DNA of 64,000 bases, taken from contig NZ_CP030771.1 in assembly GCF_006088715.1 (NCBI RefSeq), positions 4,464,001 to 4,528,000 of the forward strand, read 5' to 3'. This document shows positions 1 to 50,528 of this stretch, piece after piece. Numbering within the stretch: the stretch's first letter is position 1; each line of letters begins with the position of its first letter. The notes beneath the pieces were generated by a model. It saw nothing but the letters and a program-made list of their open reading frames with translations. It was not told where the DNA came from and ran no database searches. Origin of the DNA: Streptomyces sp. YIM 121038 (lineage in GTDB: Bacteria > Actinomycetota > Actinomycetes > Streptomycetales > Streptomycetaceae). A program made the position numbers and the translations under genes.

Positions 1-449
1 AACCCCCCAAGGCCCTCCACGAACGGCCGCAGCCCCACCTCCCCCCGCCCCCGCGCCAGGGTGAGGTGGGGATGGAAGCCCCGCCCCGCGTCCACGCCGG
101 GCCCGGCCCCGGCCCTGCGCCCCGCCGCGGACACCCGCTCCGCGAGCAGCCGCAGCGCGGCCGCCTCCCCGGCCACCCCCGCCCACAGCGCCCGGTCCCC
201 GAACCGCCCGCCCCCGCGCAGCGCGAGCGCGAACGGCGCGGTGCGCCAGGCCGCCCGCCCGAGCCGCGCGCCGAGGTCGGCCACGACCGCGTCGTCGACC
301 TCGCCGAGGAAGGCCAGCGTCAGATGCCACCCGGCACGCTCGGTCCAGCGCAGCGCCCCCGCGTCGGGCAGCCGCTTCAAGTCGTCCACGCGCCCGTCGA
401 GTTCGGCCACCACGCGCTCCGGGGGCAGCACCGCCACGAAGAGTCTCAT
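1..449 (-). CDS. thpR: RNA 2',3'-cyclic phosphodiesterase (2H family), 3' end cut off by the window
   Basis: The minus-strand frame opens with ATG at 449 and runs off the left edge, giving about 149 of the usual 180-190 residues. Both catalytic HxT motifs of the 2H phosphoesterase family are visible: HLTLAFLG near residue 42 and HPHLTLARG near residue 130. The start MRLFVAVLPPE is typical of the LigT/ThpR family. These enzymes open 2',3'-cyclic phosphates on RNA and act in the cytoplasm; the physiological substrate is unknown. The start codon lies only 17 bp from that of the divergent acetyltransferase, so the promoters of the two genes must overlap each other's coding ends. Confidence 0.9.
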   Translation of the reverse strand, partial: MRLFVAVLPPERVVAELDGRVDDLKRLPDAGALRWTERAGWHLTLAFLGEVDDAVVADLGARLGRAAWRTAPFALALRGGGRFGDRALWAGVAGEAAALRLLAERVSAAGRRAGAGPGVDAGRGFHPHLTLARGRGEVGLRPFVEGLGG

Positions 450-466
450 GCGGCTAGCCTGCCCTG

Positions 467-1006
467 ATGGACAGCAACAGCACAGATCACACCGGCCCCA
501 TACGCGTACGCACGGGCGGCGCGGAGGACGTACCCGTGTTCCTCGGTCTGCTCGACAGCGCCGCCGAGTGGCTGGTGGCGCAGGGGTACACGAAGCAGTG
601 GGGCACCGAGCCGCTGTCGGCGAATCCGCGGGTGGTGGAGTCCGTGGAGAAGTACCTCGCCACGGGCACGCCGTGGATCGCCGAGGTGGACGGGGTGCCC
701 GCGGGCATGCTGATGCTCACCGACAGCCCCACCGGCTACGTGGCGCCGGTCGACGAGCCCGAGCGGTACGTGCACTACCTCGCCACCGCCGGGCGCTTCG
801 CGGGCCTGGGCGTGGGCAGGACGCTGCTGGCCCGCGCCGCGGCCGAGACCCGCGCCCAGGGCGTGTCCCTGCTGCGGGTCGACTGCTACGCGGGCAACGG
901 CGGCAGGCTCGTCGCGTACTACGAGAGCAACGGTTTCGTCCGTACGGAGACCTTCACGGCGAAGGACGGCACCTGGCCGGGCCAGGTCCTCGCCATGCGG
1001 GTCTGA
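467..1006 (+). CDS. GNAT family N-acetyltransferase
   Basis: This 179-residue protein has the GNAT fold: the acetyl-CoA pyrophosphate-binding signature GLGVGR is at residues 113-118, followed by helix LLARAAAETRA and the terminal YYESNGFVR element (residues 151-159). The N-terminus (VPVFLGLLDSAAEWL) matches GNAT helix 1. The acceptor substrate cannot be read from the sequence. A TAGCCT hexamer at 455-460 sits exactly 6 nt before the ATG and there is no Shine-Dalgarno sequence, so a leaderless mRNA is likely. The gene stands alone and its stop is 48 bp from the convergent MFS gene. Confidence 0.88.
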   Translation: MDSNSTDHTGPIRVRTGGAEDVPVFLGLLDSAAEWLVAQGYTKQWGTEPLSANPRVVESVEKYLATGTPWIAEVDGVPAGMLMLTDSPTGYVAPVDEPERYVHYLATAGRFAGLGVGRTLLARAAAETRAQGVSLLRVDCYAGNGGRLVAYYESNGFVRTETFTAKDGTWPGQVLAMRV

Positions 1007-1054
1007 GCAAGGCCCGGCCCCGGCCCCGTACGGGACCGGGGCTCCGGGGCCGGT

Positions 1055-2401
1055 TCACGCCGCCGGGGCGAGCGCCACCTCGCGCGGCACGAAGCGCACG
1101 TGCTGGCGGCCCCGGCGCAGATCCACCTGCAGGCGCAGGTTGGCCGCGCGCGCCAGGCCCAGGCCGACGCCGAGCGAGGCCAGGGCGACGACGAGCCCGC
1201 CGAGCGCGAAGCTCACGCGGACCCCGTAGGTGTCGGTGAGCCAGCCGAAGAGCGGCCCGCCGAAGGGGGTGCCGCCGACGAACACCATCATGAACAGGCT
1301 CATCACCCGGCCCCGCATCTCGGGGTCGGTGGCCATCTGCACCGAGGAGTTCGCGGTGACGTTGACGGTCAGGCCGATCGCGCCGACGGGGATGAGCAGC
1401 GCCGCGAAGACGTACGCGTTCGGCACGGCGGCCACGGCGATCAGGGCGGCGCCGAAGAGCCCCGCCGTGGCGGTGAGCATCCGCAGCCTGGACGTCCGGC
1501 GCCGGGCGGCGAGCAGCGCGCCGATCAGCGATCCGGCGGCCATCAGCGTGGTGAACGCCGCGTACATGCCGGAGCCGCCGTGGAAGACGTCGTCGGCGTA
1601 CGCGCTCAGCCAGATCGGGAAGTTGAAGCCGAACGTGCCGATGAAACCGATCAGGACGATGGGCCAGATCAGCTCCGGGTGCGCGCGCACGTAGGTCAGG
1701 CCCTCGCGCAGCTGGCCCTTGCCGCGGCGCGGGGCGAGCGGGCTGCGGGTCAGTTCGCCGGTGCGCATGAGCAGCAGACCGGCGATCGGCGCGAGGAAGG
1801 ACAGGCCGTTCGCCAGGAAGGCGTAGCCGGGTCCGACGGCGGCGGTCACGACGCCCGCGACGGCGGGGCCGACGAGGCGGGCGGACTGGAAGTTGGCCGA
1901 GTTCAGGCTGACGGCGTTGCGCACCTGGTCCGGGCCGACCAGCTCGGAGACGAAGGACTGGCGGGTGGGGTTGTCGACGACGGTGACGAGGCCGGTGAAG
2001 AAGGCCGTCACATAGACGTGCCAGACCTGGACGTGGCCCGTGAGGGTCATCGCGGCCAGGAACAGACCGCCGAGGCCCATGGCTCCCTGGGTGACGAAGA
2101 GCAGGTTCCGCTTGGCGAAGCGGTCGGCGATCACACCGCCGTACAGGCCGAAGAGCAGCATCGGCAGGAACTGCATGGCCGTCGTGATGCCGACGGCCGC
2201 GGAGGACCCGGTGAGGCTGAGGACCAGCCAGTCCTGGGTGATGCGGGCCATCCAGGTGCCGGTGTTCGACACGACGGCCCCGGCCGCGAAGAGCCGGTAG
2301 TTCCGGATCCGCAGCGAGCTGAACATGGAGGTCTTGGAGCGGACAGAGGGGTCGAGGGCGGTTGGTGCGGGGGCGGAGTCTGCTCCGGATCCCGTACTCA
2401 A
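1055..2401 (-). CDS. MFS transporter (drug-exporter type)
   Basis: This 448-residue protein is strongly hydrophobic with about 12 predicted membrane segments. The N-terminal pattern (RIRNYRLFAAGAVVSNTGTW) is typical of the EntS/DHA3-like MFS exporters. The chosen start is a TTG at 2401 because a perfect AAGGAGG lies about 9 nt upstream; a GTG or ATG further in cannot be excluded. It lies 86 bp downstream of a MarR-type repressor on the same strand, a common arrangement for drug-inducible efflux. Substrate unknown. A GC-rich hairpin (2449-2474) separates the two genes and could attenuate readthrough. Confidence 0.9.
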   Translation of the reverse strand: MSTGSGADSAPAPTALDPSVRSKTSMFSSLRIRNYRLFAAGAVVSNTGTWMARITQDWLVLSLTGSSAAVGITTAMQFLPMLLFGLYGGVIADRFAKRNLLFVTQGAMGLGGLFLAAMTLTGHVQVWHVYVTAFFTGLVTVVDNPTRQSFVSELVGPDQVRNAVSLNSANFQSARLVGPAVAGVVTAAVGPGYAFLANGLSFLAPIAGLLLMRTGELTRSPLAPRRGKGQLREGLTYVRAHPELIWPIVLIGFIGTFGFNFPIWLSAYADDVFHGGSGMYAAFTTLMAAGSLIGALLAARRRTSRLRMLTATAGLFGAALIAVAAVPNAYVFAALLIPVGAIGLTVNVTANSSVQMATDPEMRGRVMSLFMMVFVGGTPFGGPLFGWLTDTYGVRVSFALGGLVVALASLGVGLGLARAANLRLQVDLRRGRQHVRFVPREVALAPAA

Positions 2402-2448
2402 AGGGGTTCGCCTCCTTTGGCGGTCCGGGCCCGCGCGGGGCCCTGAGG

Positions 2449-2474
2449 GGCACGGCCCCCGAGGGGGCCGTGCC
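2449..2474 (-). terminator. GC-rich hairpin between marR and MFS genes
   Basis: This is a 12-bp perfect inverted repeat (GGCACGGCCCCC, spacer GA, then its complement) located 14-39 nt after the MarR stop codon. It has no following T-run, as usual in high-GC bacteria, so it may act as an attenuator rather than a full terminator. Confidence 0.45.
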
Positions 2475-2487
2475 GGTGGTCAGTCGG

Positions 2488-2925
2488 TCACAGGTGGGCC
2501 AGCTTCTCCAGCACGGGCGCGGCGTCGCGGAGCTTCGCCCACTCGTCGTCGTCGAGCTCCTCGGTGAGCCGCGCGAGCCACGCGTTCCGCTTTCTGCGGC
2601 TCTCCTCGAGCATGGTCTCGGCCTGCTCGGTCTGGGTGACCACCTTCTGGCGGCGGTCGTCGGGGTGCGGTTCGAGCCGCACCAGACCCTTGGCTTCGAG
2701 CAGCGCGACGATGCGGGTCATCGACGGCGGCTGCACGTGCTCCTTGCGGGCGAGCTCGCCCGGGGTGGCGTTGCCACAGCGGGCGAGGGTGCCGAGCACC
2801 GACATCTCGGTGGGGCTCAGCGACTCGTCGACCCGCTGGTGCTTGAGTCGACGGGAGAGGCGCATCACGGCGGAGCGCAGTGAGTTCACGGCGGCGGCGT
2901 CGTCGCCATGGGAGAGGTCCGGCAT
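2488..2925 (-). CDS. MarR family transcriptional regulator
   Basis: This 145-residue cytoplasmic DNA-binding protein has the MarR winged helix: LSPTEMSVLGTLARCG (about 37-52), recognition helix region PPSMTRIVALLEAKGLV (about 67-83) and wing with the DDRRQK signature (about 89-94). Family members repress themselves and a neighbouring transporter until a small ligand binds; here the MFS gene immediately downstream is the obvious partner. A perfect 6+6-bp inverted repeat overlaps its own -10-like hexamer (see 2934-2949), consistent with autoregulation. TACTCT lies 7 nt before the ATG, suggesting a leaderless transcript. Confidence 0.93.
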   Translation of the reverse strand: MPDLSHGDDAAAVNSLRSAVMRLSRRLKHQRVDESLSPTEMSVLGTLARCGNATPGELARKEHVQPPSMTRIVALLEAKGLVRLEPHPDDRRQKVVTQTEQAETMLEESRRKRNAWLARLTEELDDDEWAKLRDAAPVLEKLAHL

Positions 2926-2933
2926 GGTCTTTA

Positions 2934-2949
2934 GAGTAACTCATTACTC
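2934..2949 (-). promoter_or_regulatory. Candidate MarR operator overlapping the marR -10 region
   Basis: The inverted repeat GAGTAA-CTCA-TTACTC lies 9 nt upstream of the marR start codon. On the minus strand TACTCT (2938-2933) is a plausible -10 element with 7 nt to the ATG, so a bound repressor would cover the promoter. The assignment to this MarR protein is inferred from position and symmetry. Confidence 0.6.
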
Positions 2950-3092
2950 AGGCTAAGTACCACCGCGTTTACGCGCACGGGAAGCGGGACCTGCCCAGGA
3001 ACCGGAACACGGAACCCTTTCGTCACCCGAACGAGTGAGCCGGATTCGGAAAGTCACGCATCGCCCGTCCGGGGGCGGCGACCCTGGCGGGC

Positions 3093-3269
3093 ATGGCATC
3101 GACAGTGCTCAGCCTGCGGATAGACAGTGAGCTGCTCGACCGGCTCCGGAAGCACGCCGCCAAAAGGGGAATGAGCGTCCAGGACTACGTGGTCCGGACG
3201 CTCATCCGTGATGACTTCGACGAACGGTTCAAGTCGTCCGTCGAGGAGACAGAGAGGTTCTACGCCTGA
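3093..3269 (+). CDS. Small ribbon-helix-helix (CopG-like) protein
   Basis: This 58-residue ORF begins ATGGCATCGACA and ends TGA at 3267-3269. Its sequence fits the RHH fold: strand TVLSLRIDSELLDRL, then helix RKHAAKRGMSVQDYVVRTLI. The strand-helix pattern is that of CopG/Arc-type dimers, which bind DNA as regulators or antitoxins. No toxin-like gene adjoins it, so a stand-alone DNA-binding role is more likely. The stop codon forms the first bases of a 17-bp terminator stem. Functional target unknown. Confidence 0.75.
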   Translation: MASTVLSLRIDSELLDRLRKHAAKRGMSVQDYVVRTLIRDDFDERFKSSVEETERFYA

Positions 3270-3319
3270 GGCCGCGCGCCGCGCCCGGGCTCGGGACCCG
3301 GACGCGGCGCGCGGCCTCA
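3267..3319. terminator. Bidirectional terminator with 17-bp stem
   Basis: Arms at 3267-3283 and 3303-3319 are perfect complements and flank a 19-nt loop. The hairpin sits between the convergent RHH gene (whose TGA is part of the stem) and the purine permease gene, so it can serve both. Confidence 0.8.
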
Positions 3320-3334
3320 GGGGCCCGCGGGGCT

Positions 3335-4783
3335 CTAGGTGAGGTCGAGCGCGGGCATCAGGTAGTAGAAGGCGAACACGGCCGACACGACGTACATGGC
3401 CACCGGCACCTCCCGGCCGCGCCCCGCCGCGAGGCGCAGGACGGTGAAGGTGATGAAGCCCATGCCGATGCCGTTCGTGATCGAGTACGTGAACGGCATC
3501 ATCAGCATCGTCACGAACGCCGGGATCGCGATCGTGTAGTCGCTCCAGTCGATCTGCCCGATCGAGCCCGACAGGATCAGGAAGCCGACCGCGAGCAGGG
3601 CGGGCGTCGCCGCCTGCGAGGGCACCATCGTGGCGAGCGGGGTGAGGAAGAGCGCCACGGTGAACAGGCCGCCGGTGACGACGTTGGCGAAGCCGGTGCG
3701 GGCACCCTCGCCGACGCCCGCCGTGGACTCCACGAAGCAGGTGGTGGCCGAGGAGGACGAGGCGCCGCCCGCCGCGACGGCGATGCCGTCGACGAACAGG
3801 ACCTTGTTGATGCCGGGGAAGTCCCCCTTGTCGTCGGTGAGGTGGGCCTCGTCGCCGATGCCCATGATCGTGCCCATCGCGTCGAAGAAGCACGAGAGCA
3901 GCACGGTGAAGACGAACAGGACGCCGGTGAGGACGCCGACCTTCTCGAAGCCGCCGAACAGGCTGATCTCGCCGACGAGCCCGAAGTCCGGCGTCGCGAC
4001 CGGGTTGCCGGGCCACTCGGGGGTCGTCAGGCCCCAGGAGGGCACGTCGGCGACCGCGTGGACGATCATGGCCACAGCCGTCATCACGACGATCGAGAGC
4101 AGGATCGCGCCCGGCACCTTGCGCACCAGGAGCGCGAGGGTGAGCAGCACGCCGAGGACGAAGACGAGCACCGGCCAGCCGTTGAGGTGGCCGTCGCCGC
4201 CGAGCTGGAGCGGCACGGTGGTGTGGGCGGCGTCCGGGATGCGCGAGACGAAGCCCGCGTCGACCAGGCCGATCAGCATGATGAACAGGCCGATGCCGAT
4301 CGCGATGCCCTTGCGCAGGCCGAGCGGCACCGCGCTCATCACCCGCTCCCGCAGCCCGGTGGCGACGAGCAGCATCACCACGAAGCCCGCGAGCACCACC
4401 ATGCCCATGGCGTCCGGCCAGGACATGCGGGGCGCGAGCTGGAGCGCCACCACGGTGTTCACGCCGAGCCCGGCCGCGAGCGCGATCGGGACGTTGCCGA
4501 TGACGCCCATGAGCAGCGTGGTGAACGCGGCGGTGAGCACGGTGGCGGTGACCAGCTGCTTGTTGTCCAGCTGGTGGCCGTACATGTCCTTCGCGCTGCC
4601 CAGGATGATCGGGTTGAGCACGATGATGTACGCCATCGCGAAGAAGGTGGCGAAGCCGCCGCGCACTTCCCGCGCCAGGGTCGAGCCCCGCTCCGAGATC
4701 TTGAAGAACCCGTCGAGCCCGCCCTGCGGGGGATTCGGGGGCGGCTGCTTGGCGTCGACCGGAGCGGTGGCCGAGGGGGACAT
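3335..4783 (-). CDS. NCS2 family purine permease (AzgA/PbuG type)
   Basis: This is a polytopic protein of about 482 residues. The N-terminal stretch ISERGSTLAREVRGGFATFF and the following FAMAYIIVLNPIIL are hallmarks of the AzgA branch of NCS2 transporters, which import adenine, guanine or hypoxanthine with protons across the cytoplasmic membrane. The frame is open to 4855, but ATG at 4783 (MSPSATAP) is preferred because GAGGT precedes it by about 7 nt and the upstream codons are atypical. The 200-bp upstream region is AT-rich and contains two GTAT/ATAC palindromes. No purine riboswitch fold is recognisable there. Confidence 0.92.
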   Translation of the reverse strand: MSPSATAPVDAKQPPPNPPQGGLDGFFKISERGSTLAREVRGGFATFFAMAYIIVLNPIILGSAKDMYGHQLDNKQLVTATVLTAAFTTLLMGVIGNVPIALAAGLGVNTVVALQLAPRMSWPDAMGMVVLAGFVVMLLVATGLRERVMSAVPLGLRKGIAIGIGLFIMLIGLVDAGFVSRIPDAAHTTVPLQLGGDGHLNGWPVLVFVLGVLLTLALLVRKVPGAILLSIVVMTAVAMIVHAVADVPSWGLTTPEWPGNPVATPDFGLVGEISLFGGFEKVGVLTGVLFVFTVLLSCFFDAMGTIMGIGDEAHLTDDKGDFPGINKVLFVDGIAVAAGGASSSSATTCFVESTAGVGEGARTGFANVVTGGLFTVALFLTPLATMVPSQAATPALLAVGFLILSGSIGQIDWSDYTIAIPAFVTMLMMPFTYSITNGIGMGFITFTVLRLAAGRGREVPVAMYVVSAVFAFYYLMPALDLT

Positions 4784-4832
4784 GCGGGACCTCATGACCT
4801 CTGTTGAACGGGATAAGCCGAGCTTGCACGAA

Positions 4833-4888
4833 TTTGTATCTTCATACGAAAGCAACCGGCCATTAAGAAGCCGTTTCAGTATGAATAC
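4833..4888 (-). promoter_or_regulatory. AT-rich promoter region with two GTAT...ATAC palindromes
   Basis: TTTGTAT-CTTC-ATACGAA (4833-4850) and GTAT-GA-ATAC (4879-4888) lie 50-105 bp upstream of the permease start, in sequence with far lower GC than its surroundings. They may bind a regulator of purine uptake; no known family is recognised. Confidence 0.35.
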
Positions 4889-4986
4889 ATGAGCGTGAAA
4901 TGGCTATCTCCGCGCGTAGAGCCTTGGGGCACAAGGGGTCCCGGAGCGCGCTCAGGGCCGGTGGGGGCCCCGTCTAAGCTGAGGGC

Positions 4987-5262
4987 ATGGCGAAGTGGAC
5001 ACCCAAGCACGAGGCGCCGGAGCCCCTGGAAGGGCCCGTCGTCGCCACCATCACCGGCGGCACGGCCATCTGGTTCGTCCTCTTCCTGGCCCAGCTGCCG
5101 TTCTACGGCTGGTTCGACGACCGCGACGCCACCTGGTGGGTGTGGACCTGCCTCGCGGGCGGCGGCCTCGGCCTGATCGGCATCTGGTACGTGCGGGGCC
5201 GCGAGGCGGCCATCAAGCGGGCGGAGGCCTCTCGTACCGCCGCAGTACGGGATGCGACCTGA
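4987..5262 (+). CDS. DUF2530 small membrane protein
   Basis: This 91-residue protein is recognisable as DUF2530, an actinobacterial family of unknown function. Two membrane segments are visible (about residues 20-38, ITGGTAIWFVLFLAQLPFY, and about 47-66 around WWVWTCLAGGGLGLIGIWYV), followed by a basic cytoplasmic tail RGREAAIKRAEASR. TAAGCT lies 6 nt upstream of the ATG, which suggests a leaderless mRNA, although GAGGG between them could also serve as a weak ribosome-binding site. Confidence 0.85.
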   Translation: MAKWTPKHEAPEPLEGPVVATITGGTAIWFVLFLAQLPFYGWFDDRDATWWVWTCLAGGGLGLIGIWYVRGREAAIKRAEASRTAAVRDAT

Positions 5263-5343
5263 GGGCAAACCCCCTCCTACCGTGGTCGGATCTTTCAGAC
5301 ATTCAAGGGGTGAAGCCCCTGATCCCCCCTTACCGTCGAAGGC

Positions 5344-7746
5344 ATGACGCATATCGACGCGGGCGCCGAGCTCGATCCGGTCCACCCGGTGCCACCGCCG
5401 ACAGGACGCGCCACCGGCCTCAGTGCCGCCGAGGTGGCCGAGCGGGTCGCCCGCGGCGAGGTCAACGACGTACCGGTCCGCAGCAGCCGCTCCACCGCCG
5501 AGATCGTCCGGGCCAACGTCTTCACGCGCTTCAACGCGATCATCGGCGTGCTCTGGGCGATCATGCTGTTCGTCGCGCCGATCCAGGACAGCCTCTTCGG
5601 CTTCGTGATCGTCGCGAACACCGGCATCGGCATCATCCAGGAGCTGCGCGCCAAGAAGACCCTCGACGGGCTCGCCGTCATAGGCGAGGCCAAGCCGACG
5701 GTCCGGCGCGACGGCGTGGCCGCCGAGATCTCCACCTCCGAGATCGTCCTCGGCGACCTGGTGGAGCTGGGCCCCGGCGACAAGATCGTCGTGGACGGCG
5801 AGACGGTCGAGTCCGACAGCCTCGAAGTCGACGAGTCCCTGCTGACCGGTGAGGCCGACCCGGTCCTGAAGAAGCCCGGCGACAAGCTGATGTCGGGCTC
5901 GTTCGTGGTCGCGGGCGGCGGCGCCTTCACCGCGACCAAGGTGGGCCGCGAGGCCTACGCCGCCCAGCTCGCCGAGGAGGCGAGCCGCTTCACCCTCGTC
6001 CACTCCGAGCTGCGCTCCGGCATCTCCACGATCCTCAAGTACGTGACGTGGCTGATGATCCCGACCTCGATCGGCCTGGTCATCTCCCAGCTCGTCGTCA
6101 AGGACGACAACTTCAAGGAGTCGATCGCGTACACGGTCGGCGGCATCGTCCCGATGATCCCCGAAGGCCTGGTCCTGCTCACCTCCGTGGCCTTCGCGAT
6201 CGGCGTCATCCGCCTCGGCCGCCAGCAGTGCCTGGTGCAGGAGCTCCCGGCCATCGAGGGCCTCGCGCGCGTGGACACCGTCTGCCTCGACAAGACGGGC
6301 ACGCTCACCGAGGGCGGCATGGACGTCACCGAGCTGCGCCCCCTGAACGGCTCGGACGAGACCTACGTACGCAAGGTCCTCGGCGCCCTCGGGGAGTCGG
6401 ACCCGCGCCCGAACGCCTCCCTCCAGGCCATCATCGACGCCTACCCCGACAGCGAGGAGTGGCGCTGCACCGAGTCGCTGCCGTTCTCCTCCGCCCGCAA
6501 GTACAGCGGCGCCAGCTTCAGCGAGAGCGACGGCGAGAGCTCGACCTGGCTGCTCGGCGCGCCCGACGTGCTGCTTCCCGCCGGGGACCCGGCGCTCGAC
6601 GAGGTCGAGGACCTCAACCACCAGGGCCTGCGCGTGCTGCTCCTCGCCCGCGCCGCGGGCGACCTGGACGCCCCCGACCTCGCCGCGGGGGCGCGCCCCA
6701 CGGCCCTGGTCGTCCTGGAGCAGCGGCTGCGGCCCGACGCCGCCGACACCCTGCGCTACTTCGCCGAGCAGGACGTCCAGGCCAAGGTCATCTCCGGTGA
6801 CAACGCGGTCTCCGTGGGCGCGGTCGCGGCCAAACTGGGCCTGCCCGGCGCCGAGAACACGGTGGACGCGCGGCAGCTGCCCAAGGAGGAGGCGGCGATG
6901 GCGCAGGAGCTCGACGCCAACTCCGTCTTCGGCCGCGTGACCCCGCAGCAGAAGCGGGACATGGTGGGCGCGCTCCAGTCCAAGGGCCACACGGTCGCCA
7001 TGACGGGCGACGGCGTGAACGACGTCCTGGCCCTGAAGGACGCGGACATCGGCGTGTCCATGGGCTCGGGCTCGGAGGCGACGCGGGCGGTCGCCCAGAT
7101 CGTGCTGCTCAACAACAGCTTCGCGACGCTGCCGTCAGTGGTGGCGGAGGGCCGCCGGGTCATCGGCAACATCACCCGTGTGGCCACGCTGTTCCTGGTG
7201 AAGACGGTCTACTCCGTCGTCATCGCCCTGCTGGTGGTCTGCTCCCAGGTGGAGTACCTGTTCCTGCCGCGCCACCTGACGCTCCTGTCCACCCTGACGA
7301 TCGGCGTCCCGGCCTTCTTCCTGGCGCTCGCCCCCAACAAGGAGCGCGCCAAGCCGCACTTCGTCCGCAGAGTCATGCGCTACGCGCTGCCCGGCGGCAT
7401 CATCGCGGCCCTCTCCACCTTCGCCACGTATCTGCTCGCCCGCCACCACTACGTGGGCGACGGGGCCCGCGAGGCCGAGACCAGCGCGGCCACGCTCACG
7501 CTCTTCCTGGTCTCGCTGTGGGTCCTGGCGATCATCGCCCGCCCGTACACCTGGTGGCGGATCTGCCTGGTGGCGGCCATGGGCCTGGGCTTCCTGCTGG
7601 TCCTGACCATCCCCTACCTCCAGGACTTCTTCGCCCTGAAGCTGGTCGGTACGACGATGCCGTGGGCGGCGGTCGCGATCGCGGCGGTCGCCTCGGCGGC
7701 GACGGAGTTCGCCTTCCGCTGGGTCGACCGCCGCTTCGCGGCGTGA
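5344..7746 (+). CDS. Cation-translocating P-type ATPase, CtpE-like
   Basis: This 800-residue protein has all P-type ATPase landmarks: the actuator TGEA motif in ESLLTGEADPVLK, phosphorylated Asp316 in CLDKTGTLTEGG, and the hinge TGDGVNDVLALKDADIG near residue 555, with membrane helices on both sides and a hydrophobic C-terminal bundle. There is no metal-binding CPC motif or N-terminal HMA domain, so it is not a heavy-metal pump. Length and the N-terminal text (EIVRANVFTRFNAIIGVL) resemble mycobacterial CtpE, for which calcium uptake has been described; calcium as substrate here is inference. TACCGT lies 7 nt before the ATG, suggesting a leaderless start. Confidence 0.93.
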   Translation: MTHIDAGAELDPVHPVPPPTGRATGLSAAEVAERVARGEVNDVPVRSSRSTAEIVRANVFTRFNAIIGVLWAIMLFVAPIQDSLFGFVIVANTGIGIIQELRAKKTLDGLAVIGEAKPTVRRDGVAAEISTSEIVLGDLVELGPGDKIVVDGETVESDSLEVDESLLTGEADPVLKKPGDKLMSGSFVVAGGGAFTATKVGREAYAAQLAEEASRFTLVHSELRSGISTILKYVTWLMIPTSIGLVISQLVVKDDNFKESIAYTVGGIVPMIPEGLVLLTSVAFAIGVIRLGRQQCLVQELPAIEGLARVDTVCLDKTGTLTEGGMDVTELRPLNGSDETYVRKVLGALGESDPRPNASLQAIIDAYPDSEEWRCTESLPFSSARKYSGASFSESDGESSTWLLGAPDVLLPAGDPALDEVEDLNHQGLRVLLLARAAGDLDAPDLAAGARPTALVVLEQRLRPDAADTLRYFAEQDVQAKVISGDNAVSVGAVAAKLGLPGAENTVDARQLPKEEAAMAQELDANSVFGRVTPQQKRDMVGALQSKGHTVAMTGDGVNDVLALKDADIGVSMGSGSEATRAVAQIVLLNNSFATLPSVVAEGRRVIGNITRVATLFLVKTVYSVVIALLVVCSQVEYLFLPRHLTLLSTLTIGVPAFFLALAPNKERAKPHFVRRVMRYALPGGIIAALSTFATYLLARHHYVGDGAREAETSAATLTLFLVSLWVLAIIARPYTWWRICLVAAMGLGFLLVLTIPYLQDFFALKLVGTTMPWAAVAIAAVASAATEFAFRWVDRRFAA

Positions 7747-46737: not shown

Positions 46738-46764
46738 TTAGCACTCGCCCCCTCCGAGTGCAAG
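46738..46764 (-). promoter_or_regulatory. CIRCE element 2 (HrcA operator)
   Basis: TTAGCACTC-N9-GAGTGCAAG: perfect left arm and 7 of 9 in the right arm. It is 36 bp from CIRCE 1, so two HrcA dimers could bind side by side. Confidence 0.8.
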
Positions 46765-46868
46765 GTCGCCCCCACGCTCTGGGGTCCGGCTTCCCCCGGC
46801 GCCCACCGCCCACCGGGCACGGACCCCGGCCCCCGACGCCGCCGCCGCGACTGCGGCTGGGCTGCCCG

Positions 46869-46932
46869 CTTGCCCGCTTGCCCGCTTGCCCGCTTGCCCG
46901 CTTGCCCGCTTGCCCGCTTGCCCGCTTGCCCG
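46869..46932. repeat. Eight perfect tandem copies of an 8-bp unit
   Basis: CTTGCCCG is repeated eight times exactly, flanked by degenerate CTGCCCG and CTGCGG. It lies about 290 bp upstream of groEL beyond the CIRCE elements. Probably a slippage-prone microsatellite. Confidence 0.92.
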
Positions 46933-46944
46933 CTGCGGATCTTC

Positions 46945-47830
46945 CCCACCCGCCCGCCATGACCAGCCAGCTCCACAGCGCGAGCTGGAGGGCACCCCCC
47001 TGCCCACACCGCGCCCTGCCAAGCAAACCGGCACCCTTCGCCCCCCACCACCCGCCAGGCGCGGGCCACCACCCACAACAACACCGCTCCACGCCGGGCC
47101 TTTCCCACCCACCCACCCGCCCATGACCAGCCAGCTTCGCCGTGCGGGCGGCCCGTTCGCCCCCCACCGCCCGCCGAGTGCGGGCCGCCACCCACAACAC
47201 CGCCGCTCCGCGCCGGAACTTTCCCACCCGCCCGCCCATGACCAGGCAGCTTCGCAGCGCGAGCTGGAGGGCACCTCCCTGCCCGCACAGTGCACTGCCG
47301 AGCAAACGGGCGGGTGGGTGGGAGGCATCCGCCGCGGAGCGACGGTGTTGGGGGCGACGGCCCGCACCCGAGCGACGGACGACAGGACGAACGACCCGCC
47401 GCACGGTGCAGCCGCCTGGTCACGGGTGGGCGGGTGGGAGGCGCCCGCCGCGACAGCGGCGGCCACGGGAGCGACGGCACACGCCCGAGAGACGGGCGGG
47501 ACAGCGGGGCGAACGAGCCGCCCGCACAGTGCAGCCGCCTGGCCATGGGCGGGCGGGTGGGAGGCACCCGCCGCGACAGCGGCGGCCACGGGGGCGGCGG
47601 CCCGCACCCGCGAGACGGACGGGACAGCGGGGCGAACGGGTCGCCCGCACGACGCAGCCGCCTGGTCACGGGTGGGCGGGTGGGAGGCATCCGCCGCGGC
47701 AGCGGCGGCGTCGGGGGCGGCGGCCCGCACCCGAGAGACAGGCGGGACGGCAGGGCGAACGGGCCCCGCACAGTGCAGCCGCCTGGCCACGGGCGGGCGG
47801 GTGGGAGGCGCCCGCCGCGACAGCGGTGGC
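46945..47830. repeat. Large inverted array of ~120-bp repeats between groEL and cspA
   Basis: The gap is filled by a unit of about 120 bp. Rightward units begin GTGCAGCCGCCTGG, continue GGGCGGGTGGGAGGC, CCGCCGCGACAGCGGCGG, CCCGCACCCG and GACGGGACAGCGGGGCGAAC; starts are near 47405, 47530, 47655 and 47777, with a variant at about 47310. Three leftward units, marked by CCCACCCGCCCGCCCATGACCAGCCAGCTTCGC, begin near 46945, 47105 and 47225. The orientation switch is near 47290. All six frames are open over long stretches because of the composition, but none looks like a gene. Confidence 0.85.
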
Positions 47831-48626: not shown

Positions 48627-48902
48627 TCAGCCGCCGGCGACCGCCGGAATGATCGAGACGCCCGCGCCGTCGGGCGTCGCGGTCTGGAGGCCCTGCTCGA
48701 AACGCACGTCGTCGTCATTGACGTACACGTTCACGAAGCGGCGCAGCTTGCCCTGGTCGTCCAGGACGCGGGCGCCGATCCCGGCGTGGTTCTTCTCCAG
48801 GTCGGCGATGACCTCGGCGAGGGTGGCGCCCTCGGCGGAGACCTCCGCCCGACCGCCGGTGTACGTACGAAGGATGGTCGGGATGCGAACGTTGACGCTC
48901 AT
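48627..48902 (-). CDS. MoaD/ThiS-like sulfur carrier protein
   Basis: This 91-residue beta-grasp protein runs from ATG 48902 (MSVNVRIPTILRTYTGG) and ends in the Gly-Gly tail (AVAGG) that is adenylated and thiocarboxylated in sulfur carriers. FVNVYVNDDDVRF is the core strand pattern. It lies 148 bp downstream of the threonine-synthase-like gene on the same strand, and that gene is governed by a SAM riboswitch. No moa or thi gene is nearby. This suggests sulfur delivery to amino-acid synthesis rather than to molybdopterin or thiamine. GTG 48911 is an alternative start. Confidence 0.9.
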   Translation of the reverse strand: MSVNVRIPTILRTYTGGRAEVSAEGATLAEVIADLEKNHAGIGARVLDDQGKLRRFVNVYVNDDDVRFEQGLQTATPDGAGVSIIPAVAGG

Positions 48903-48954
48903 ACTCTTCACCTCGGTAGTTCAGACAGGGCACCCGGTACAGGAGGGCCCCGAA

Positions 48955-49010
48955 GGGGCGCGGGGCTATGTCGATGTGCGGCTCCGCCGCGTGGGCGCGA
49001 CCAGCCACAG
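48955..49010. repeat. Streptomyces intergenic repeat (family C) between thrC-like and moaD-like genes
   Basis: GGGGCGCGGGGCTATGTCGA, TGTGCGGCTCCGCCGCGTGG and GCGCGACCAGCCACAG form one unit containing a GCGGCTCCGCCGC hairpin. From memory, this element is very common between Streptomyces genes. Confidence 0.6.
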
Positions 49011-49050
49011 CGAACCCGCTGACGACATGAGGACCTGCGACTCTACGGCG

Positions 49051-50358
49051 CTAGCCCGCGAGCCCCGCGGAGCGGAACGCGTCCAGGCTCGGGCGGATCG
49101 TCGCGGTCGCCTGCGACGTCGCGGCGACCGCGTCGAGGGTCTTCAGGCCGTCGCCGGTGTTGAGGACCACCGTGGTCAGCGAGGGGTCGATGAGACCGGC
49201 CTCGATCAGCTTGCGCGTGACCCCGACGGTCACGCCGCCCGCGGTCTCCGCGAAGATGCCCTCGGTGCGGGCGAGGAGCTTGATCGCGTCGACGACCTGC
49301 TCGTCGGTCACGTCCTCCACCGCGCCGCCGGTGCGGCGGGCGATGTCGAGCACGTACGGACCGTCGGCCGGATTGCCGATGGCGAGGGACTTGGCGATGG
49401 TGTTCGGCTTCTGCGGGCGGACGACGTCGTGGCCCGCCTTGAAGGCGGCGGAGACCGGCGAGCAGCCCTCCGCCTGGGCACCGAAGATCTTGTACGGCTT
49501 GTCCGCGACCAGACCGAGCTCGATCAGCTCCTTCAGACCCTTGTCGATCTTCGTGAGCTGCGAGCCGGAGGCGATCGGGATCACGAGCTGGTCCGGCAGC
49601 TCCCAGCCGAGCTGCTCGCAGATCTCGTACGCGAGGGTCTTGGAGCCCTCGCCGTAGTACGGCCGCAGGTTCACGTTGACGAAGCCCCAGCCCTCGCCCA
49701 GCGGGTCGCCGATGAGCTCGGAGCAGAAGCGGTTCACGTCGTCGTAGTTGCCCTCGATGCCGACGAGCTCGCCGCCGTAGACCGCGGCCATGACGACCTT
49801 GCCCTGCTCCAGGTCGTGCGGGATGAACACGCAGGAGCGGAAGCCCGCGCGGGCGGCGGCGGCGCCGACGGCCCCGGCGAGGTTGCCCGTGGAGGAGCAG
49901 GACAGCGTGGTGAAGCCGAAGGCGCGCGCGGCCTCAAGGGCCTGCGCGACGACGCGGTCCTTGAAGGAGTGCGTGGGGTTGCCGGAGTCGTCCTTGACGA
50001 ACAACTTGCCCTGTTCGACGCCCAGTTCACGGGCCAGGTTGTCGGCCTTGACGAGCTGGGTCCAGCCGGGGTTGAGGTTCGGCTTGTCCGCGACGTCGGC
50101 GGGGACGGGCAGCAGCGGGGCGTACCGCCAGATGTTGGCGGGGCCGGACTCGATCTTGGCCCGGAGCGCCTCGGGGTCGCCGACGGGGAGGTCGTACGCG
50201 ACTTCGAGCGGGCCGAAACACTCGGCGCAGGCGAAGATCGGTCCGAGCGGGAAGACGGTGCCGCACTCGCGGCAGGAGAGACCCGAGGCGGGTCCCAGGT
50301 CGACGGTGGCGTCCGCGGTGCCCTCGGGGGACGTGGTGTCGACGGTCTGCACAGCCAT
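49051..50358 (-). CDS. thrC: Threonine synthase-like PLP enzyme (candidate homocysteine synthase)
   Basis: This 435-residue fold-type II PLP enzyme starts at ATG 50358. Residues 29-47 form a zinc ribbon (CRECG...CAECF), and SFKDR near residue 131 contains the PLP lysine (about Lys133). GNLAGAVGAAAARAG is the phosphate loop. Threonine synthase converts O-phosphohomoserine to threonine. However, this gene lies behind a SAM-I riboswitch and next to a sulfur carrier, while streptomycetes usually have another thrC in a hom-thrC-thrB operon. It may therefore replace the phosphate of O-phosphohomoserine with sulfide to make homocysteine. I recall such a ThrC-like/sulfur-carrier route being reported in Streptomyces (unverified). 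Confidence 0.93.
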   Translation of the reverse strand: MAVQTVDTTSPEGTADATVDLGPASGLSCRECGTVFPLGPIFACAECFGPLEVAYDLPVGDPEALRAKIESGPANIWRYAPLLPVPADVADKPNLNPGWTQLVKADNLARELGVEQGKLFVKDDSGNPTHSFKDRVVAQALEAARAFGFTTLSCSSTGNLAGAVGAAAARAGFRSCVFIPHDLEQGKVVMAAVYGGELVGIEGNYDDVNRFCSELIGDPLGEGWGFVNVNLRPYYGEGSKTLAYEICEQLGWELPDQLVIPIASGSQLTKIDKGLKELIELGLVADKPYKIFGAQAEGCSPVSAAFKAGHDVVRPQKPNTIAKSLAIGNPADGPYVLDIARRTGGAVEDVTDEQVVDAIKLLARTEGIFAETAGGVTVGVTRKLIEAGLIDPSLTTVVLNTGDGLKTLDAVAATSQATATIRPSLDAFRSAGLAG

Positions 50359-50393
50359 GGAGGCGAGGCCCTTTCTCCTCATCTTCCTCGCGG

Positions 50394-50528
50394 CGCATCT
50401 CGCCACGAGACGGAATTGGCACCTTCCCGAGCCGGGAGCCTCGCGGTGCGCCTGTGGCGGCTACGAGACCGGCTGGAGGGTTGCCGGGGCTTCAACGGGC
50501 CGTATCCCTCTGCCCCTCTGGATGAGCG
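50394..50528 (-). promoter_or_regulatory. SAM-I (S-box) riboswitch upstream of the thrC-like gene
   Basis: The minus strand carries the S-box hallmarks in order: GCTCATCCAGAGGGGCAGAG (P1/P2), GGGATACGGCCCGTTGAAGC (P2 and J), CCCGGCAACC (P3), variable P3 arm, GGTGCCAATTCC (P4 region) and GAGATGCG closing P1. It ends about 36 nt before the thrC-like start, and a purine-rich GATGAGGAGAAAGG follows. Binding of S-adenosylmethionine would therefore lower expression, probably by blocking translation initiation, which is common in actinobacteria. Confidence 0.88.

Follow-up and report, generated by a model that had tools for sequence, protein, structure and literature searches.

Why should a riboswitch for S-adenosylmethionine (SAM) precede the gene of a threonine-synthase-like enzyme, and why should the gene of a small sulfur carrier follow it? 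The question is raised by a locus of Streptomyces sp. YIM 121038, located in a stretch of 64,000 nucleotides (RefSeq assembly GCF_006088715.1, contig NZ_CP030771.1, positions 4,464,001 to 4,528,000) that is termed the window throughout. Positions 48627-50528 of the window enclose three elements on the minus strand: a SAM-I (S-box) riboswitch, metM, coding for a ThrC-like pyridoxal 5'-phosphate (PLP) enzyme, and metO, coding for a ThiS/MoaD-like sulfur-carrier protein. Judged from sequence, the locus is very probably a methionine-branch unit, metM-metO, which serves the MetM/MetO route to homocysteine. An earlier prediction, made from the letters of this DNA and referred to below as the original prediction, offered such a pathway as possibly new; it has in fact been published (Hasebe et al. 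2024, as cited in PMC12172450). The present analysis adds the wide occurrence of SAM-I control, one methionine T-box, a residue signature and the tails of the carriers.

Among the papers listed in literature searches for the pathway, PMC12172450 is the only one in which a discussion of MetM was seen. It credits Hasebe et al. 2024 with the discovery of MetM as a homocysteine synthase in Streptomyces. It describes a SAM riboswitch upstream of metM in S. albulus, the relief of S. albulus methionine auxotrophy by MetM, the occurrence of MetM homologues in cyanobacteria and the relatedness of S. albulus metO to a Microcystis sulfur-carrier gene that adjoins the thrC of that organism. A Streptomyces pathway with a ThrC homologue and a sulfur carrier, to which the original prediction refers, thus exists in the form of the S. 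albulus MetM and metO (PMC12172450). The window shares with S. albulus the genus, the ThrC homologue with its sulfur carrier, the SAM riboswitch before metM and, by prediction, the conversion of O-phosphohomoserine to homocysteine; no difference of kind was seen, and the two systems are likened by description, not by direct sequence identity. According to what is reported of that study (Appl Environ Microbiol 90:e01247-24), metO follows metM, the sulfur donor is thiocarboxylated MetO, the substrate is O-phosphohomoserine, and the pathway is widely conserved in Streptomyces.

Riboswitch, enzyme and carrier in the host genome

The aptamer of the metM leader (50376..50528) matches the full Rfam model RF00162 (positions 1-108) with 74.0 bits (E 5.6e-16), where the gathering score is 44.4. 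It is the sole SAM-I riboswitch found in the genome, an assembly of 11.1 Mb in two contigs, where 150 of 595 first-look candidates were scored. The leader end (50359..50375) contains AAAGGG, the likely ribosome-binding site according to the leader pattern and in silico folding, 10 nt 5' of the start codon. metM (49051..50358, starting with ATG at 50358 and ending at 49051) codes for 435 amino acids, among them the PLP lysine Lys133, and its product matches Pfam PALP with 223 bits and the NCBIfam thrC equivalog with 272 bits (cut-off 167). The enzyme is predicted to be a homocysteine synthase acting on O-phosphohomoserine. metO, directly downstream (48627..48902), starts with ATG at 48902 or alternatively with GTG at 48911 and ends with AVAGG-stop at 48627. 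Its product belongs to the ThiS family (Pfam ThiS, 61 bits) and carries the C-terminal Gly-Gly of a ThiS/MoaD carrier, while its score with NCBIfam SAMP1, 56.7 bits, is narrowly under the cut-off of 60. Both the S-box before a ThrC-family gene and the same-strand carrier with a Gly-Gly tail, as described in the original prediction, are therefore borne out, and the zinc ribbon that it placed at residues 29-47 is exact, with cysteines at positions 29, 32, 44 and 47 of MetM.

The same arrangement recurs throughout the closest relatives. A total of 585 metM relatives came from genomes with a name. The best 80 of them, which form with the window the Streptomyces comparison of 81 loci, are all from Streptomyces and are 86-93% identical. 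metO lies directly downstream of metM in 80/80 of the other loci, and a text pattern detects the start of the S-box (P1/P2) in 81/81 leaders, window included, and the full core in 80/81; Rfam was applied within Streptomyces to the window and its genome. Since carrier and S-box start are this constant, the order riboswitch-metM-metO is not due to chance. A protein search with MetO likewise returned, among the 120 matches listed, nearly exclusively Streptomyces where a name was given.

How the leader might work was approached by folding. The stretch 3' of P1, GATGAGGAGAAAGGGCCTCGCC, is almost constant (75/81 Streptomyces leaders parsed). AAAGGG is partly base-paired in the unconstrained ensemble, with a mean unpaired value of 0.65; when P1 is forbidden, it opens to a mean of 0.89, and the value is higher in 73/74 leaders. 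The upstream motif GAGGAG shows the opposite trend in most leaders and is more open without P1 in only 9/75. The predicted folds suggest that the leader acts as a translational switch.

The surroundings in the genome agree with a methionine function. The second thrC that was expected in a hom-thrC-thrB operon is present at C1:6437568, with a frame read as hom on one side and one read as thrB on the other, and diaminopimelate-decarboxylase-like and Rho-like frames flank this region (all four kinds of neighbours were named by reading translations). Its product, 36% identical to MetM, matches solved threonine synthases with E values from 2.1e-126 to 3.7e-146. Owing to this separate operon, the objection that the gene in the window might encode the only threonine synthase of the genome falls away. 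A third ThrC-like protein is encoded at G000:C1:3664303-3665409; it is 29% identical to MetM in a match that crosses one TAG, reads NPTWSHKDR at the PLP lysine and scores below the cut-off of each threonine-synthase model listed.

The acyl-homoserine routes were searched for as well. MetA has no match in the genome, whereas the same search was positive in 8/14 control genomes, with six over the cut-off. MetX matches cover no more than 74 and 103 positions of the model, with 26.3 and 25.2 bits; this control is soft, with matches in 9/14 control genomes and 0/14 over the model's 500-bit cut-off, and the absence of MetX accordingly rests on weak, short scores. The family PF01053 has two near-full-length members, which fit cystathionine gamma-synthase (CGS; PRK07811, 686 bits, cut-off 513) and cystathionine gamma-lyase (CGL; PRK07582, 570 bits), and neither of these two is of the MetY type; six further partial matches with lower scores, of which three exceed the cut-off of Pfam, lie outside this classification. 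The predicted lack of MetX and MetY thus held. Taken together, the genome has a separate ThrC along with Hom and ThrB, no convincing MetX, MetA or MetY route, and a ThrC-family gene followed directly by a sulfur-carrier gene, the combination that characterizes the MetM/MetO pathway. All the testable predictions about the genome were borne out (the second thrC, no convincing MetA, MetX or MetY, and a single SAM-I riboswitch found), and the homocysteine-making reading is supported. A candidate for activation of the carrier is the one MoeZ-type E1 enzyme (756 bits, cut-off 647), besides which there are one weaker ThiF match over and one under the cut-off; ThiS-family carriers number four.

Active site and distribution of MetM

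Residues 73-428 of the window's MetM match solved threonine synthases by sequence. To define what sets the two enzymes apart, 205 MetMs, 89 from Streptomyces and 116 from distant genomes, were aligned with the Thermus thermophilus ThrC (1uim), whose numbering is used here, and with the ThrC from the genome of the window. K61, the PLP lysine, as well as N87 and N154 are kept in 205/205 MetMs and S84 in 204. By contrast to ThrC, T88 is replaced by Leu, N157 by Arg and R160 by Tyr in 205/205, S155 by Asn in 203/205 and N188 by Ser in 202/205; the equivalents in the window are Leu160, Arg232, Tyr235, Asn230 and Ser264, respectively. T88, S155, R160 and N188, all replaced in the window's MetM, are what we take to be the contacts of ThrC with the substrate phosphate. 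An insertion of one residue next to S155 in MetM makes the pairing of S155 and N157 alignment-dependent and leaves T88 and R160 unaffected. Moreover, with 89 rows from Streptomyces the count does not represent 205 independent events, yet the 116 distant rows agree. As far as the alignment tells, the substrate pocket of MetM is consistently altered with respect to ThrC. MetM shares with canonical fold-II threonine synthases (1uim, 2d1f) the PLP lysine and the STGN loop, and it departs from them by T88L, R160Y, N157R, S155N and N188S and by an N-terminal ribbon of four cysteines.

The four cysteines are found in 203/205 MetMs. One of the remaining rows is cut, and the other (L209, genome G143) reads Cys-Ser-Cys-Ser at a locus that retains riboswitch and carrier; the ribbon is therefore general, yet dispensable. 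That it might be a docking site for the carrier is a guess, weakened by this locus.

MetM relatives (E<=1e-80) occur in 138/396 Actinomycetota genomes, 12 of them from the genus of the window (including its own genome), two more from its class and 124 from other classes. Loci from 128 of the 138 genomes were examined, 12 from Streptomyces and 116 from others, and ten were left out; the 116 were picked by protein similarity alone. An Rfam SAM-I riboswitch is present in 81/116 of these non-Streptomyces loci, in all cases upstream on the same strand and 323-586 nt 5' of the FKDR codon. A carrier-like frame accompanies metM in 92/116, and 73 loci possess both.

A different regulator stands in one genome (G233), where a T-box lies just 5' of metM (L172, 1693-1991; 102.9 bits, gathering score 93) and no SAM-I riboswitch is found at the locus. 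The specifier position is placed as in known T-boxes, and the specifier loop is GAA-C-AUG-C; AUG being the methionine codon, this T-box reads as methionine-specific.

In few but telling cases metM-metO is tied to sulfate assimilation, an E1 enzyme and a JAMM protease. One cluster (L139, genome G244, 3-6488) comprises, in this order, ATP sulfurylase (Sat), TauE, JAMM, a frame with both ThiS and PALP (ThiS/CysM), MetM, MetO, E1 and a PP-loop-like protein. Pfam backs the ATP sulfurylase, whose frame is truncated where the locus ends, and likewise TauE, JAMM, ThiS+PALP, MetM, the ThiF E1 and the PP-loop-like protein, and the carrier between MetM and E1 bears the tail ETDV after Gly-Gly. A locus of genome G351 (L138) has this gene order as far as metM, which is truncated there, and in G233 Sat- and JAMM-like frames lie less than 10 kb from metM. 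A JAMM frame is near metM in 3/116 loci, most of which hold just about 1.5-2 kb per side.

Because a public curated model calls MetM a threonine synthase, Streptomyces and many deep lineages of actinobacteria can give the impression of an incomplete methionine pathway. Riboswitch, T-box and the signature T88L and R160Y, along with N157R, suggest an annotation rule by which MetM can be separated from ThrC.

Alternatives to a carrier-fed homocysteine synthase

Several observations weigh against the assignment of this locus to the MetM/MetO route. The genes metM and metO of the window are spaced by 148 bp, and their co-transcription is presumed. In the non-Streptomyces set, 35/116 metM loci have no SAM-I riboswitch (several are contig ends), and 24/116 have no carrier-like frame at metM (some contigs are cut). 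Riboswitch and adjacent carrier are both missing from 13/13 examined loci of one family (f12), one of which (L224) has only 156 nt of sequence downstream. The carrier frame of G233 (L172, 3353-3640) contains a long T run and ends with Trp-Gly in a draft assembly, and hence this part of the assembly, or the gene, is doubtful. By model score MetM is itself a threonine synthase, as it is accepted by the NCBIfam thrC equivalog. Finally, a Microcystis homologue, 51.6% identical to S. albulus MetM and adjacent to a carrier gene, is described in PMC12172450 as mainly a threonine synthase and threonine deaminase; in the view of its authors, it is not a fully functional MetM inside the cell.

The loci that lack a carrier beside metM are also what favours the best surviving alternative, namely that MetM uses free sulfide, while MetO merely speeds the reaction or is dispensable. 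The use of sodium sulfide to mimic MetM activity, mentioned in the same source (PMC12172450), points in this direction. However, metM and metO are linked across deep lineages, E1 and JAMM protease lie within the L139 metM cluster, and a MoeZ-carrier set is located elsewhere in each of the four f12 genomes inspected. A JAMM frame was matched at these MoeZ-carrier loci in 3/4 (L250-L252), and the JAMM match of the fourth genome is at the same place; the f12 loci (among them L122, L123, L126, L127 and L130) also keep T88L and R160Y. We consider the use of free sulfide unlikely.

Most of the homocysteine could also come from a CGS that uses O-phosphohomoserine, as the plant route does, and metM would then be a side route. 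The PRK07811-type protein of the genome would provide such an enzyme, but the only SAM-I riboswitch found precedes metM and not the CGS-like gene, and no MetC of the PF01053 family was seen, as the only other near-full-length member fits CGL (beta-lyases of other families were not searched for). The CGS-like protein may instead serve reverse transsulfuration, and a plant-like main route is very improbable.

It is hardly credible that MetM is an additional threonine synthase and that the carrier has another role, such as molybdopterin synthesis or thiolation: the thrC model score and the report of a cyanobacterial homologue that lies beside a carrier gene and forms threonine (PMC12172450) speak for it, but a ThrC near the solved threonine synthases already sits between hom- and thrB-like frames, distant relatives have SAM-I or methionine T-box leaders, T88L and R160Y recur in every aligned MetM, and a carrier adjoins metM in all 81 Streptomyces loci examined.

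Predicted route, carrier tails and the JAMM protease

In the MetM/MetO route as proposed here, low SAM would cause the leader to expose the ribosome-binding site, and MetM and MetO would be made. MoeZ, an E1 with a rhodanese domain, would adenylate MetO and place sulfur on its C terminus in the form of a thiocarboxylate. The substrate of MetM, O-phosphohomoserine supplied by the Hom-ThrB branch, would lose its phosphate by elimination, as in ThrC; whereas ThrC puts water on the beta carbon, MetM would put the sulfur of MetO on the gamma carbon. The product would be homocysteine, either free or as a MetO adduct to be released by a JAMM protease. Methylation would then yield methionine, and high SAM would turn the unit off.

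Two known systems resemble this scheme. Krishnamoorthy and Begley 2011 reportedly described a protein-thiocarboxylate methionine synthesis in Wolinella succinogenes with HcyS/HcyD/HcyF and MetY. There too a protein thiocarboxylate is said to be the sulfur source for methionine, and the carrier tail is reportedly trimmed by a JAMM-type protease; the enzyme, however, is said to be a PF01053 MetY acting on O-acetylhomoserine, in contrast to the ThrC-fold enzyme on O-phosphohomoserine predicted for the window. The CysO/CysM/Mec system of actinobacteria reportedly involves the same carrier family, MoeZ as E1 candidate and a PLP-enzyme acceptor, but its product is cysteine and its acceptor CysM. In the genome of the window, a CysO-like carrier at C1:3851632 adjoins a cysM-like frame and, unlike MetO, ends with AVAGGMV; both carriers have VRIPTILRTYTGG and PAVAGG in common. 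The single JAMM match of the genome lies about 3.6 kb upstream of the cysO-like frame (G000:C1:3851632-3855793), which ABC-transporter-like frames, read from translation, adjoin on the JAMM side.

The ends of the carriers vary. In the 81 Streptomyces loci, MetO ends with Gly-Gly in 50, including the window, and with Gly-Gly-Cys in 31; the listing of the 120 closest carriers includes 65 with a terminal GGC and 49 with a terminal GG. The 91 complete carriers from outside Streptomyces comprise 64 that end with Gly-Gly, 26 with 1-15 extra residues and the Trp-Gly carrier of G233, and CysO-like carriers are also tailed, as exemplified by GGMV in the genome of the window. As the E1 needs a free Gly-Gly end on its carrier, tailed MetO probably needs trimming. 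A simple form of a single origin of GGC was considered and is unsupported: nine changes occur on the tree, the starred branches of which force at least two, in a quick tree with 34/78 inner branches open.

The expectation that a tail goes along with a JAMM protease (PF14464, E<=1e-10) was rejected. Where the carrier frame is complete (91 genomes from outside Streptomyces), JAMM is present in 22/26 with a tailed carrier versus 60/64 with a Gly-Gly carrier, and hence the tail does not predict JAMM; G233 with its Trp-Gly carrier has one as well. Four tailed cases lack JAMM at this cut-off. At a loose cut-off G017 and G064 pass the curated score and G010 has a weak match only, whereas G365 (97% complete, tail QA) has no JAMM even then and is a direct counterexample to a tie between tail and protease. 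With the same threshold, JAMM is found in 127/138 genomes with MetM compared to 99/258 others (Fisher p 1.5e-27, a test that ignores phylogeny). Since phylogeny is uncontrolled and JAMM often lies beside CysO-CysM-like genes, which may explain the association, the latter is no proof of a link to MetM.

The Mec JAMM protease opens the CysO-cysteine adduct, and a MetO ending with Gly-Gly-Cys has, at its end, the same make-up as this adduct. On this ground we tentatively propose, at somewhat less than even chance, that MetO is widely a precursor and that one JAMM protease both matures MetO and serves cysteine synthesis, thus coupling the methionine and cysteine branches. The shared protease may also release homocysteine from the MetO adduct. 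The carrier tails hence lead to a specific prediction, a protease shared with cysteine synthesis.

Elsewhere in the window, a repetitive G+C-rich stretch at approximately 46738-47650 separates GroEL-like and cold-shock-like frames; the frames within it repeatedly read RASGQAGK or ACPLARLP.

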